64,000 bases of DNA, taken from Rhodospirillaceae bacterium bin65. GTDB lineage: Bacteria; Pseudomonadota; Alphaproteobacteria; Bin65. The notes below the pieces were generated by a model. The model made no database searches. It saw only the letters and a list, made by a program, of their open reading frames with translations, and was not told the origin of the DNA. Location: positions 1-64,000 of the forward strand of contig MPMX01000012.1 in NCBI GenBank assembly GCA_002238725.1, in the 5' to 3' direction. A program made the translations under genes and the position numbers. Positions 37,755 to 42,897 of this stretch are shown here, piece by piece (positions within the stretch are counted from its first letter, which is position 1; the number at the start of each line of letters is the position of its first letter).

Positions 37755-38633
37755 ATGTCCCGAATCGCCTATGTCAACGGCCGCTACGCGCCGCACCGCG
37801 ACGCAGCGGTCCATATCGAGGATCGGGGATACCAGTTCGCCGACGCGGTCTATGAGGTAATCGCGATCCAGAATGGCCGGTTCGTCGACGAGGAGCCCCA
37901 TCTCGACCGGCTTGACCGGTCGCTGCGCGAATTGCGCATGGCCGCGCCGGTCGCCCGGCCGGCTTTGAAACATATCCTGCGCGAAACCGTCCGGCGCAAC
38001 CGGGTGCGCGACGGCATCGTCTATATGCAGATCTCGCGCGGCGTCGCGCGGCGCGACCATGCCTTTCCGGCGCACCGCGAAAGTTCCCTCGTCGTGACGG
38101 CGCGGTCGACCACGCCCAAGTCAGCGGCCAGGGCCGGCGGCGTTGCGGTGGTGACGACAGAAGATATCCGGTGGAAACGCTGCGATCTCAAGACAGTAGG
38201 GCTGCTGCCTAACGTGCTGGCCAAACAGATGGCGGCGGAGGCGGGAGCCTACGAGGCCTGGATGATCGGGGCGGACGGCGCGATCACCGAGTGCACATCG
38301 GCGAACGCCTGGATCGTCACGGACACGCGCGAGGCGGTGACCCGGCCGCCGACCCACGCGATCCTCAACGGCATCACCCGCCGAACCGTTCGCGCCATTG
38401 CCGAGGAAGCCGGCTACAGTGTTGTTGAGCGATCATTTACCCTGGACGAGGCGCTCGCCGCCGCCGAGGCCTTCCTGACCAGCACGACGTCCCACGTCAT
38501 GCCAGTCGTGAGGATTGACGGCGCGCCGATCGGCGACGGCCGACCCGGACCGCTGACCTGCGCCCTGCAAGCGCAGTACGAGGCCTATGCGGGTGCGGCC
38601 GAGGCGGGCACGACCGCTGCAGGCGGGGCATGA
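37755..38633 (+). CDS. D-amino-acid aminotransferase (class IV PLP aminotransferase)
   Basis: 292 residues, fold type IV. It starts RIAYVNGRYAPHRDAAVHIE and EDRGYQFADAVYEV. The PLP lysine is in WKRCDLKTVGLLPNVLAK, and the phosphate-binding part ECTSANAWIV is followed by ILNGITRRTV. Closest in features to D-alanine transaminases, which supply D-Ala/D-Glu, but branched-chain and aminodeoxychorismate enzymes share the fold. Its stop overlaps the next gene's start. Confidence 0.87.
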   Translation: MSRIAYVNGRYAPHRDAAVHIEDRGYQFADAVYEVIAIQNGRFVDEEPHLDRLDRSLRELRMAAPVARPALKHILRETVRRNRVRDGIVYMQISRGVARRDHAFPAHRESSLVVTARSTTPKSAARAGGVAVVTTEDIRWKRCDLKTVGLLPNVLAKQMAAEAGAYEAWMIGADGAITECTSANAWIVTDTREAVTRPPTHAILNGITRRTVRAIAEEAGYSVVERSFTLDEALAAAEAFLTSTTSHVMPVVRIDGAPIGDGRPGPLTCALQAQYEAYAGAAEAGTTAAGGA

Positions 38634-39298
38634 CGGCGCTGCCGGCGCCGGCCGCCATCCTGTTCGACTGGGACAACACGCTGGTCGATAACTGGCCCTC
38701 GATCGCCCGGGCGCTGAATGCAGCGAGACGCGCCTTCGGCCATCCGGAATTGAGCGAAGCGGCGGTGCGCGGCTGGGTCCGGCAATCGATGCGCAACAGC
38801 TTCCCCGCCATGTTCGGCGAGGCCTGGACCGAGGCGCGTGAGATCTTCTACGACACATTCCGCGCAAACCATCTGGAGACGCTGAAACCGCTGCCGGGCG
38901 CTGCTGAACTGCTGGAGACTCTGAACGGGCGCGGCCTCTATGTCGGCGTCGTCAGCAACAAGAACGGCGACTATCTGCGCAAGGAAATCCGCCATCTGGC
39001 CTGGACCGCCCGTTTCGGGCGCGCCGTCGGCGCCGGCGATGCGGTCGAGGACAAGCCGGCCGTCGCCCCGGTCGACCTGGCGCTGGACGGATCGGGCATC
39101 GGCCGGTCCGGCGCGGTCTGGTTCGTCGGCGATGCGGCGGTCGACATGGAATGCGCCATCCGCGCCGGCTGTACGCCGATCCTGCGGGCGACCGCCGACG
39201 AGCCGGAAACGGCGTTCAGCGACTGGCCGCCGGCGGCGGTGGCAGATTCTTCGGAGGGCATTATGAGGCTTGTCGATAAAGCGCGGTGGCCCATATGA
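38630..39298 (+). CDS. HAD family hydrolase (phosphoglycolate-phosphatase-like)
   Basis: 222 residues. HAD motif I is LFDWDNTLVDNW (nucleophile and acid Asp), motif II VVSNKNGDYLRKEI, motif III lysine in EDKPAVAPVDLAL, motif IV FVGDAAVDMECAIRAG. The cap is of the small helical (subfamily I) type. The substrate is not evident; phosphoglycolate or another sugar phosphate is typical. It is translationally coupled to the aminotransferase by an ATGA overlap. Confidence 0.85.
   Translation: MTALPAPAAILFDWDNTLVDNWPSIARALNAARRAFGHPELSEAAVRGWVRQSMRNSFPAMFGEAWTEAREIFYDTFRANHLETLKPLPGAAELLETLNGRGLYVGVVSNKNGDYLRKEIRHLAWTARFGRAVGAGDAVEDKPAVAPVDLALDGSGIGRSGAVWFVGDAAVDMECAIRAGCTPILRATADEPETAFSDWPPAAVADSSEGIMRLVDKARWPI
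39270..39297 (+). promoter_or_regulatory. Candidate promoter of hfq
   Basis: TTGTCG (39270-39275), 16-bp spacer, CATATG (39292-39297), at the very end of the HAD gene and about 100 bases before hfq. Confidence 0.35.
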
Positions 39299-39400
39299 CG
39301 GGGTGAGCGGCGAATCCTGCCGCCGGCGCAGCCGGGATGCTCCGCACCGGAAAGGCTCGGCACCGGGAATGACTGCATAAGAATAATGAAGGATTCGAGC

Positions 39401-39658
39401 ATGTCCTCGGAAAAGCAACAAAACCTGCAGGACGTGTTCCTGAACAATATCCGGAAGAACAAGACGCCGGTGACCGTGTTTCTTGTGAACGGTGTCAAGT
39501 TGCAGGGGATTGTCACCTGGTTCGACAATTTCTGCGTTCTGCTGCGCCGGGACCAGCATTCGCAGCTGGTCTACAAACACGCGATCTCGACGGTCATGCC
39601 GGCGCAGCCGGTCCAACTGTTCGAGCCGGACGCAGCGGGCGCCGACAGCAGCGCCTGA
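39401..39658 (+). CDS. hfq: RNA chaperone Hfq
   Basis: 85 residues. Sm1 motif [20 protein letters not shown], Sm2 around [10 protein letters not shown]; the proximal-face Q ([10 protein letters not shown]) and distal-face residues are in place. It forms a hexamer that pairs small RNAs with mRNAs. ATG 39401 is preferred over ATG 39386 because GAAGGA lies seven bases before it. It is followed by hflX in the same reading frame, as in many proteobacteria. Confidence 0.96.
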
Positions 39659-39709
39659 TCCCGGGCAACCGCCATCGCTATCGAAAGACAGTCGAACGGG
39701 GCAGGGGCC

Positions 39710-41008
39710 CTGGTCGTTCACCCTTGGCTGCGGAGCGACGCCGGCGCTTCTGCGCGTAGCGAAGACCGGCTCGGGGAAGCCATCGGCCTGGCCCGCGCCA
39801 TCGGCCTCGATGTCCGAAGCGCTCATCCAACACCGTGCGGGCGCGTCGTGCCGGCGAGCTGGATCGGCAAGGGAGCGGTCGAAACGATCGGCTGCGAGGT
39901 CGCGGCGACGGGCGCGGAACTGGTCGTCATGGACTGCGCGCTCAGCCCGGGCCAGCAGCGCAATCTGGAACGGCGCTGGCACTGCAAGGTCATCGACCGG
40001 ACTGCTTTGATCCTGGAAATCTTCGGCGCACGCGCCCGCACCCGGGAAGGCCGGCTCCAGGTCGAACTCGCCCACCTGACGTGGCAGCGCAGCCGGCTGG
40101 TACGCAGCTGGACCCACCTGGAGCGGCAGCGCGGCGGCTTCGGGTTTGTCGGCGGCCCCGGCGAATCCCAGATCGAGCTGGACCGGCGCCTGATCGACGA
40201 CCGGATTGCCCGGCTGAAACGGGAACTCGAAACGGTACGCAAGCGCCGCGCCCTGCAGCGCAAGGCGCGGGAGAAATATCCATTTCCGGTCGCAGCGCTG
40301 GTCGGATACACCAACGCTGGAAAATCCACGCTGTTCAACCGGCTGACCGCGGCCGGAGTCGCGGCGGAAGACATGTTGTTCGCGACCCTCGATCCGACGA
40401 TGCGCAAGGTCGAACTCCCGCGCGGGCGCAAGATCATCCTGTCGGACACGGTCGGCTTCATATCGGACCTGCCGACCGAACTCGTCGCCGCCTTCCGGGC
40501 GACGCTGGAGGAAGTCGCGCTCGCGGATGTCATCCTGCATGTCCGGGATATCGCAAGGCCGGACTCGGCGGCGCAGGCCGAGAGCGTACGCGGGATCCTG
40601 CGCGACCTGGTATCGGCGGACAAGCTCGACTCGGCGACCATCGAGGTCTGGAACAAGATCGACTGCGTGGACCGCGCCGGCCGCGAGCTTCTGGGCAACC
40701 GTGCGGACCGGTCCAACGAGCGTATTCAGCTCGTCTCCGCGCTGACCGGCGACGGCGTCGCCGGGCTGTGCGCCGGGGTCGAGGCGCTGCTCGGCGCTGC
40801 ACGCCGGCGCATGGCGATCCGGGTGCCGCACGAAAAGGGCGCGGCGCTGACCTGGCTGTACGACCGCGGGGCGGTCGTCGAACGCACCGACGACGAAGAG
40901 GGCAGTCTGCTGATCGTCGACGTCGAGCAGTCGGACTGCCGGACCCTGGACCGCCGCTACGGGTTGTACACAGCGCCCCGGGCGGACGAATCAGCCGGCG
41001 GACCGTGA
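39710..41008 (+). CDS. hflX: GTPase HflX; N-terminal start codon unclear
   Basis: A ribosome-splitting GTPase. G1 GYTNAGKSTLFN, G3 DTVGFISDLPTELV, G4 NKID; the HflX N-terminal domain has RSRLVRSWTHLERQRGG and GFVGGPGESQIELDRR. Family-like sequence starts at LVVHPWLRSDAGAS (codon 39710). Yet no ATG, GTG or TTG occurs in frame between the hfq stop (39658) and GTG 39848, which would remove about 46 conserved residues. A CTG at 39710 with GGGGCAGGGG upstream, or ATC at 39674 or 39680, are the only candidates; otherwise there is a sequence error. The end is certain. Confidence 0.85.
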   Translation: MVVHPWLRSDAGASARSEDRLGEAIGLARAIGLDVRSAHPTPCGRVVPASWIGKGAVETIGCEVAATGAELVVMDCALSPGQQRNLERRWHCKVIDRTALILEIFGARARTREGRLQVELAHLTWQRSRLVRSWTHLERQRGGFGFVGGPGESQIELDRRLIDDRIARLKRELETVRKRRALQRKAREKYPFPVAALVGYTNAGKSTLFNRLTAAGVAAEDMLFATLDPTMRKVELPRGRKIILSDTVGFISDLPTELVAAFRATLEEVALADVILHVRDIARPDSAAQAESVRGILRDLVSADKLDSATIEVWNKIDCVDRAGRELLGNRADRSNERIQLVSALTGDGVAGLCAGVEALLGAARRRMAIRVPHEKGAALTWLYDRGAVVERTDDEEGSLLIVDVEQSDCRTLDRRYGLYTAPRADESAGGP

Positions 41009-41090: not shown

Positions 41091-41948
41091 ATGAACCGGG
41101 ACGCCGAGGGCCGCCGGCATCCCGACCTGCCGGATTTCGAGACCGTCGACCGCATCCTGCGCGAGGCCGCGCGAACCATCGTGCTGCCGCACTTCCAAAA
41201 CCTCGCCGGCGACGATGTCAGGACCAAATCGAGCCCCAACGACTTCGTTACGGTGGCAGACGAACGCTGCGAGGTCTTTCTGCGCGACGCACTGACCCGC
41301 GCCTTGCCCGGCTCGGCAACGATCGGCGAAGAGGCGGCGGCGGACGACCCGGCGGTGCTGGAGCGCCTCGGCCGGCCGGGCGACGTCTGGATCATCGATC
41401 CTATCGACGGCACCTACAACTACGCCCACGACAATCCGCGCTTTGCCACGATCGTCGCGCTGGTGCGCGACGGCGTCGTGGTGCGCGGGTACATTCATTT
41501 GCCGGTCCGGGGAGAAACCTATGCCGCGGCGCTGGGGCAGGGGGCTCACGACGGTACCGGCGCGCTCGCATTGCCGGAGCCGGCGGCGTTCGGCGCCATG
41601 ACCGGCGCGCTCTATGTCGGCAAATCGAGGGCGCCGGCGCTGTTCGGGCGGATCAAGGCGCTGCGGGACGGCGGCCGGCTCGGGCAGCGCCGGTTCGCCC
41701 GCTGCGCCGCCTGGGAGTATATCGCGATGCTGACGGGGCGGGCGCACTACGCCGTCTTCACCCGCCTGCTGCCCTGGGACCACGCGGCCGGCATCCTGAT
41801 GATCGCCGAGGCGGGCGGCTGTTACGGATTTATCGACGACGCACCGCAATCGGGCCCGTGGCGGCCGGTCGACCGCGACGTCCCGTTCCTGTTGGCCCCT
41901 GACGCGGCGAGTTGGCGCCTGATCCGGGACACGCTGACCGAAGAGTGA
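41091..41948 (+). CDS. Inositol monophosphatase family protein
   Basis: 285 residues with the Mg2+-dependent phosphatase signature: TIGEEAAADD, WIIDPIDGTYNYAHDNPRFA (metal ligands D, D in DPIDGT) and the C-terminal LLPWDHAAGILMIAEAGG. Substrates of the family include inositol phosphate, histidinol phosphate and PAP/CysQ substrates. This protein has no decisive feature. ATG 41091 was chosen; an earlier in-frame ATG lies inside the AT-rich inverted repeat. Confidence 0.87.
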   Translation: MNRDAEGRRHPDLPDFETVDRILREAARTIVLPHFQNLAGDDVRTKSSPNDFVTVADERCEVFLRDALTRALPGSATIGEEAAADDPAVLERLGRPGDVWIIDPIDGTYNYAHDNPRFATIVALVRDGVVVRGYIHLPVRGETYAAALGQGAHDGTGALALPEPAAFGAMTGALYVGKSRAPALFGRIKALRDGGRLGQRRFARCAAWEYIAMLTGRAHYAVFTRLLPWDHAAGILMIAEAGGCYGFIDDAPQSGPWRPVDRDVPFLLAPDAASWRLIRDTLTEE

Positions 41949-42054
41949 CCCCGGAAGGTCAGGAAATGGCCGGTGCTACCCCCTGCTACGCCCGGATAAC
42001 GGCCTGCGCAAAGCCGGCAGCGAGGCAAAGAACCGCCGCAACGCCCCGAAAAAC

Positions 42055-42897
42055 CTAGTCTTCGGCCTCCGCGGCCTTCGCTTCGCTCCAGTAGCGCTCC
42101 AGGTCATCCATCGGCAGCCCGGCAACGGTGCGGCCGTCATGCCGGATACTGTCTTCCACGCTGCGGAAGCGGCGTTCGACCTTGCGGTTGGCCCGGCGCA
42201 GGGCTTCTTCCGGGTCGATGCCGAGCCGGCGGCCGACCTGGGCAACGGTGAACAGCAGGTCGCCCAGCTCCTCGGCGGCGCGGGACTCGTCCCCGTGCCG
42301 GATTTCCTCGCGCAATTCGCCGAGTTCTTCGGTCACCTTTTCGGTAATCGACAGCGCATCCGGCCAATCGAAGCCGACGCGGGCCATCCGCCGGCCCAGC
42401 TTGTGGGCGCGCAGCAGCGCGGGCAGGGCGGCGGGCACATCGTCCAGCACGCTGGCGGAATCGCCGCCCTGTTGCGATTTCTCAACCCGTTCCCGCGCCT
42501 TGTGCTCTTCCCACGCGGCAGACTGGGCCTCGACCGACGCGACCCGTTCCTCGCCGAAGACGTGCGGATGCCGCCGTTCCATCTTGTCGGCGATGGAGCG
42601 GGCGACGTCGGCGAAGTCGAACGCGCCGGCTTCTTCGGCCATCCGGGCGTGGAACACGGCCTGGAACAGGAGGTCGCCCAGTTCGTCCTGCAGGTCGGCC
42701 ATATCGTTGCGGCCGATGGCGTCGGCGACTTCGTAGGCTTCCTCGATCGTATAAGGCGCGATGGTGGCGAAATCCTGCTCCAGATCCCAGGGGCAGCCGC
42801 CGTCCGGGTTGCGCAACGCCGCCATGATGTTGAGCAGGCGCCGGATCTGGGCGGCGGCTTTTGCATTGTCGGCGGCCGGAGAAGGGGAATACGTCAT
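42055..42897 (-). CDS. mazG: Nucleoside triphosphate pyrophosphohydrolase MazG
   Basis: 280 residues with two MazG domains, as in E. coli MazG. First domain: PWDLEQDFATIAPYTIEEAY with the metal-binding EEAYEVADAI and DELGDLLFQAVFHARM. Second: TEELGELREEIRH and EELGDLLFTVAQVGRRLG. It hydrolyses NTPs to NMP and PPi. An AT-rich palindrome (42932-42947) lies 35 bases upstream. Confidence 0.94.
   Translation of the reverse strand: MTYSPSPAADNAKAAAQIRRLLNIMAALRNPDGGCPWDLEQDFATIAPYTIEEAYEVADAIGRNDMADLQDELGDLLFQAVFHARMAEEAGAFDFADVARSIADKMERRHPHVFGEERVASVEAQSAAWEEHKARERVEKSQQGGDSASVLDDVPAALPALLRAHKLGRRMARVGFDWPDALSITEKVTEELGELREEIRHGDESRAAEELGDLLFTVAQVGRRLGIDPEEALRRANRKVERRFRSVEDSIRHDGRTVAGLPMDDLERYWSEAKAAEAED

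Follow-up and report, generated by a model that had tools for sequence, protein, structure and literature searches.

The window, by which we mean the whole stretch of 64,000 nucleotides analysed here, comes from a sponge-associated bacterium and carries hfq and hflX one behind the other on its forward strand. The features of this locus, all on the forward strand, are the following:

39401..39658, forward strand: hfq, the upstream gene of the pair (PF17209, E=2.1e-33), with start codon ATG 39401
39653..39666, forward strand: possible short hairpin GCCTG-ATCC-CGGGC around the hfq stop, ending 7 nt ahead of ATC 39674
39656..39658, forward strand: hfq stop codon TGA, in the frame of hflX; TGA in 7/7 genomes of the genus
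39674..41008, forward strand: hflX in its proposed extent, 444 aa, the HflX GTPase, a ribosome-splitting factor (TIGR03156 and Pfam domains)
39674..39676, forward strand: proposed hflX start codon ATC, 15 nt past the hfq stop; AT(C/T) in 7/7 genomes
39677..39709, forward strand: variable N-terminal linker, differing in length among the seven genomes
39680..39682, forward strand: second ATC, rejected as the common start (ACC in 4/7)
39710..39712, forward strand: CTG, where the conserved core starts; rejected as the common start (CTC in 1/7)
39848..39850, forward strand: GTG, the first standard in-frame start codon, at residue 64 of the frame and internal to the HflX N-terminal domain

The hflX frame is open from 39659 to 41005 and ends at the stop TGA 41006-41008. 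It matches TIGR03156 (GTPase HflX) from residue 31 with 418.1 bits against a cut-off of 216.75, while the score for NF008280, an enterobacterial-type model, lies below the cut-off (328.1 vs. 441). The N-terminal, middle, G and C-terminal domains are present, with PF13167, PF16360, PF01926 and PF19275 all over their cut-offs, and the match to the Pfam family GTP-bdg_N (PF13167) begins at residue 36. Because the matches begin at residues 31 and 36, the conserved N-terminal domain must begin upstream of GTG 39848. For hfq, an N-terminal MSSEK or MSSDK is found in all seven genomes of the genus; the farther ATG 39386 is not common to the relatives. Upstream of the pair lie genes for a class IV aminotransferase (37755-38633) and a HAD-family hydrolase (38630-39298), which overlap by 4 nt, and downstream of hflX, within 41091-42897, an inositol monophosphatase-family gene on the forward strand is followed by a MazG gene on the reverse strand.

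The junction was compared between the window genome and six other genomes of the same genus (G001-G006), found by genome search. In all seven, hfq is terminated by TGA, hflX follows in frame 0 relative to hfq, and ATG, GTG and TTG are absent from the hfq stop to the VVHP or VIHP strand of HflX. The first-pass annotation, made from the window, had reported exactly this lack of a standard codon at the conserved N-terminus and the common frame of the two genes, and both observations are confirmed. It had offered four explanations without a choice between them, namely a start at CTG 39710, a start at ATC 39674 or 39680, readthrough of the hfq stop into an Hfq-HflX fusion, and a sequencing error. 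The codons do lie at these positions, and the comparison with close relatives that it proposed settles most of the options, leaving its interpretation partly supported. A base-calling error is excluded by the agreement of seven genomes, and an ATG at the matching place, looked for in the six other genomes, occurs in none of them. Chance is a poor explanation for the missing codon as well, because a standard codon lies at most 25 codons from the G1 motif in 61/61 located era genes (at most 20 codons in 57/61, at most 15 in 50/61) and a standard start codon is present in 122/122 located hfq genes.

What is conserved instead is a near-cognate codon. Codon +6 after the hfq stop reads ATC in six of the seven genomes and ATT in G006, the most divergent member, and AT(C/T) is thus the one near-cognate start at a fixed place in all seven. 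Codon +8, the ATC 39680 of the window, is ATC in 3/7 and ACC in 4/7, so that of the two ATC codons put forward earlier only 39674 holds. From AT(C/T) to the proline of VVHP/VIHP the distance is 16, 16, 27, 37, 37, 37 and 41 codons; the linker lengths differ by whole codons only, and the frame is always kept. Within three sister pairs the linker shows 2 synonymous and 8 non-synonymous changed codons and hence no coding constraint, whereas in the 46 codons from the beta-1 strand (VVHP) to GTG 39848, 29 codons changed, 19 of them synonymously, where neutrality predicts a share of about 0.30 (p=1e-4). Such an excess indicates selection at the protein level, and therefore translation begins upstream of GTG 39848. 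The AUC start is supported by the conservation of AT(C/T) at +6, by the downstream indels that keep the frame, and by the selection upstream of GTG.

At the level of sequence, this comparison establishes both the absence of a standard start and the presence of a conserved AUN codon whose spacing from the hfq stop is constant. In the sponge-associated bacterium and its six relatives, hflX most likely begins at this AUC or AUU just after hfq. Because the seven genomes share ancestry, AT(C/T) could represent one event and limited time; counter to that, G006 has only 68% protein identity and a changed third base in codon +6.

The bases around the hfq stop are also fixed. Invariant in 7/7 genomes are the final GCC codon of hfq, its TGA stop and, two free bases on, CCGGGC, while in the flanks 20/39 positions are invariant in the 13 codons before the motif and 2/7 between CCGGGC and ATC. 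All 10 bases of the potential 5-bp stem are invariant, and two loop bases vary (GCCTG-ANNC-CGGGC). The hairpin is predicted in 5/7 folds of 60 nt (missing in L006 and L007) and in 2/7 folds of 120 nt. Because no compensatory change occurs and only two of the seven long folds contain it, we treat the hairpin as a lead and rejected it as a firm structure. The exact motif was found at the same place in no surveyed locus outside the genus. A search of 39000-40200 with Rfam gave no element at the junction, its two matches being both off the junction and far under the gathering score. A good Shine-Dalgarno sequence ahead of the ATC is absent in the genus genomes, the best pairing with an assumed anti-Shine-Dalgarno sequence being -2.5 to -4.6 kcal/mol.

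To place the genus in context, we surveyed 146 alphaproteobacterial hflX loci (46 plus 100 fetched later), 138 of them from 172 genomes with a match; the other 34 genomes, with weaker matches, unlisted matches or, in G145, the gene at a contig edge, were left out. Start classes were assigned mechanically: the interval scanned ran from 30 nt before the hfq stop, or from an in-frame stop, to the sixth codon before the beta-1 proline, and the best standard codon inside it defined the class. This gave TTG in 55 loci, ATG in 45, GTG in 28 and none in 18, the ATG count being an upper bound because chance ATGs score as ATG. As controls in the same class, hfq has ATG in 116 and GTG in 6 of 122 located genes (16 loci not located and 2 cut off were left out), and era has ATG in 56 and GTG in 5 of 61 (7/68 loci not located). 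The difference between hflX and era in ATG has p=5.5e-16, with loci taken as independent and kinship ignored. When six of the seven genus genomes are dropped, hflX lacks a standard codon in 12/140 loci, compared to 0/61 for era (p=0.02) and 0/122 for hfq (p=0.0005), kinship again being ignored.

Seven of the 18 loci with no standard codon belong to the window genus and 11 do not. By reading, the latter offer ATA in L097, ATC in L109, a CTG overlapping the hfq stop in L138, L150 and L191, and a CTG just before that stop in L184; five of the 18 (L104, L141, L170, L183 and L196) have no clear near-cognate start, L170 having a GTG five codons ahead of the proline. The hflX gene of L280 is likewise devoid of a standard start and of a clear near-cognate one. 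A further 48 named loci were counted apart, three of them window-genus genomes already among the 146, and gave TTG 17, GTG 11, ATG 11 and none 9. Besides the three window-genus records, the nine comprise L068, where ATT or TTA is possible, and five loci that lack a standard codon ahead of the core strand and in which a CTG overlaps the hfq stop (GAAGACTGAGC): L060, L066 and L067 (Rhodobacteraceae), L065 (Phaeovulum) and L069 (an unclassified alphaproteobacterium). In these five CTGA loci HflX may be annotated too short. An ATG is on offer for hflX in L070 (Rhodobacteraceae) and L075 (Albidovulum).

Related genomes show both consistency and change. In the G185 family, where hflX was found in 3/4 genomes, all three loci (L097, L285 and L286) carry AAGGACGA(C/A)TCCG and then ATA within the last hfq codons, so placed that the ATA stands behind AAGGA, and their leaders have no standard codon except a core-strand GTG in L097. 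G163 has CTGA and its congener G231 TTG. Among six genomes of the G137 genus, two have ATC, two CTG-ATC and one CTC at the place of the ATC, and one is unassignable; with these mixed codons the genus does not qualify as a second clear instance of ATC. In E. coli K-12, the annotated start of hflX is TTG. In 40 loci of the same phylum outside the class, for which E. coli HflX served as the anchor (extrapolated where the match began late) and the limits differ from those of the 146-locus survey, the best codon is ATG in 17, TTG in 13, GTG in 9 and none in 1.

The choice of codon goes together with the gene arrangement. An ATG is available in 40/134 hfq-linked vs. 5/6 unlinked loci of the Alphaproteobacteria and, by hand count, in 8/28 loci with hfq detected upstream vs. 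9/12 without it outside the class, loci being called unlinked when no hfq was detected in the sequence available for them. Pooled, these are 48/162 linked vs. 14/18 unlinked (p=1e-4, in a post hoc comparison that ignores kinship), and the named loci, kept outside the pool, give 9/41 vs. 2/4. Judged by the codons on offer, a weak start appears to be a widespread property of hflX behind hfq, with the window genus as its extreme. The class-wide pattern of weak and non-standard hflX starts is absent from the first-pass annotation; as it goes with the hfq-hflX arrangement, it amounts to a testable rule.

AUC and AUU are of the codon kind against which IF3 discriminates. We consider it probable that hflX starts at AUC/AUU 15 nt past the hfq stop by termination-reinitiation and that start discrimination of the IF3 type keeps its output low. 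The initiator fMet-tRNA would read the AUC or AUU, and because a good Shine-Dalgarno sequence is missing and the hfq stop is so near, we infer that most initiation there comes from ribosomes that have terminated on hfq immediately before. Production of HflX would be low and responsive to IF3, because IF3 destabilises both initiation at non-standard codons and reinitiation without a Shine-Dalgarno sequence, and it would rise when IF3 or recycling is limiting, by the logic known for infC. In this way the start codon would probably limit HflX synthesis and couple it to the condition of the translation apparatus. In E. coli, overproduction of IF3 inhibits non-standard starts as well as reinitiation without a Shine-Dalgarno sequence (PMC2268962). 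The gap of 15 nt between TGA and ATC is within the spacing of termination-reinitiation pairs (up to about 25 nt), and it counts in favor of coupling because the optimal range is given as <25 nt (PMC7538156). On the other hand, the mixed codons of the G137 genus, the unconstrained linker and the five of 18 loci with no clear near-cognate start count against this explanation.

An AUC/AUU start that carries no regulation, a weak start having drifted to ATC under relaxed selection because hflX needs little expression, is possible but in our judgment rather unlikely. TTG and GTG are common in the relatives, no regulation is visible in the sequence, and HflX is dispensable for normal growth of E. 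coli (PMC9067457). However, neighboring positions change while AT(C/T) and the surroundings of the hfq stop are fixed, and several lineages have acquired AUN or CUG codons; both observations lower the probability of drift.

Could the hfq-hflX junction be a built-in sensor of ribosome recycling, in which unrecycled post-hfq ribosomes start at the AUC or read on in frame? When recycling by RRF, EF-G and IF3 falls short, HflX, as a back-up splitting factor, would then be made in proportion to the shortfall, and the weak or non-standard hflX starts behind hfq across the Proteobacteria would be less extreme versions of this sensor. According to older work cited in the discussion of PMC2268962, ribosomes initiated at non-standard codons downstream of stops once RRF activity was lost. 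In vitro, unrecycled E. coli ribosomes lacking RRF continue translating in the frame of the stop codon, and in vivo, with RRF inactivated at 39 degrees, all frames are read (both PMC9955659). Together, the findings on IF3 and RRF suggest that a recycling feedback on HflX may exist. Yet in E. coli depleted of RRF, coupling is unchanged in reporters and genome-wide, and the authors of that study doubt that reinitiation plays a major part (PMC7538156); this result counts against a recycling feedback and also against reinitiation itself. How coupling works is still under dispute (PMC12548453). We regard the sensor as doubtful.

Readthrough of the hfq TGA, by which an amino acid would be inserted at the stop to give an Hfq-HflX fusion, possibly cleaved later, is very improbable. 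It would profit from the common frame of the two genes, with no stop between them in 7/7 genus genomes, and from the in vitro reading-on of unrecycled E. coli ribosomes (PMC9955659). Outside the genus, however, hfq and hflX are in frame in 35/133 loci, which is about the chance expectation, and readthrough was rejected as a class-wide mechanism; in-frame genes with a frame open right after the hfq stop occur in 30/140 loci with hfq detected, seven of them from the window genus. The hfq stops of the 140 loci vary between TGA (80), TAA (38) and TAG (22). Within the genus, the changes in codons +1 to +5 fall mainly on first and second bases, the invariant CCGGGC excepted, a pattern that is not protein-like, and the conservation of the AT(C/T) codon would serve no need.

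CTG is a known weak start. That hflX starts at CTG 39710 or, genome by genome, at the near-cognate codon nearest the core is still highly improbable, even though the sequences of some other hflX genes point to CTG as their likely start and CTG 39710 is kept in 6/7 genomes. The seventh, L009 (G006), has CTC; the linker would have no reason to keep its frame through the changes in length; and the leucine belongs to the conserved beta-1 strand, where it is expected irrespective of any start function. Finally, a truncated HflX starting at GTG 39848, with the upstream frame as a decaying remnant, is scarcely credible: GTG is the first standard codon in frame, and in the distant pair L001-L009 the first 46 core codons evolve faster (24/46 non-synonymous vs. 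35/200 in the rest), but part of the N-terminal domain model falls in the upstream stretch, which contains no stop or frameshift in 7/7 genomes and shows in the sister pairs the synonymous excess on which the internal GTG was rejected as sole start.

Very few bacterial genes are known to start naturally with AUC, AUU or AUA. One of them, infC, has a Shine-Dalgarno sequence, whereas no good one lies at the normal spacing ahead of hflX; infC represses itself through IF3, while for hflX we propose coupling to the termination of hfq. Another such gene, pcnB, is not known to use reinitiation. The resemblance to E. coli infC, which encodes IF3 and starts with AUU, lies in an AUN start in a gene for a ribosome factor that is conserved in its lineage and missed by start-codon rules (PMC5472188, PMC1780047). 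E. coli pcnB (printed pncB in PMC1780047) shares with hflX an inefficient, gene-limiting AUU start and differs in function. The GTC start of sigR in Streptomyces is a genus-conserved non-standard start that keeps the product low, and its repression by IF3 was demonstrated by experiment (PMC5472188); it differs in being GTC rather than AUN and in that sigR is the upstream gene of its pair and hflX the downstream one. Another translation GTPase requires an AUU start for its full length, as found by comparison only; both the GTPase and its lineages are different from those of hflX. In Firmicutes, control of hflX by the state of the ribosomes translating its leader has been reported or proposed for uORFC-6-1 upstream of hflX in Bacillales (PMC8632094) and for rli80-hflXr in Listeria (PMC9067457). 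Both are leader-ORF or attenuation mechanisms, while the genus of the window has a weak start codon behind hfq.

A non-standard start of hflX was not found in our literature search, which covered titles and abstract openings among the matches listed and few subscription journals. The hflX gene would be a new case of the rare known kind of AUN-started genes, differing in its position behind a stop without a good Shine-Dalgarno sequence. With a conserved AUN start so placed in the gene of a ribosome-splitting factor, the translation factors whose synthesis is perhaps set by start-codon discrimination would gain one more member. An annotation pipeline might well pick GTG 39848, and HflX of such genomes may be annotated too short.

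The IF3 gene of the window genus likely has an AUN start too. In 7/7 genomes (L084, the window genome, and L081, L082 and L085-L088) infC shows an ATA 7 nt behind AAGGAAG or a similar sequence, which makes it likely that the genus has a second AUN-started translation gene. In six of the seven, the frame has no standard codon from its upstream stop to the conserved RIN motif; in G006, an ATG is present 14 codons upstream of the ATA. Among further relatives, with L090 not located, an ATA stands at the matching place of infC in L083, L089 and L091.
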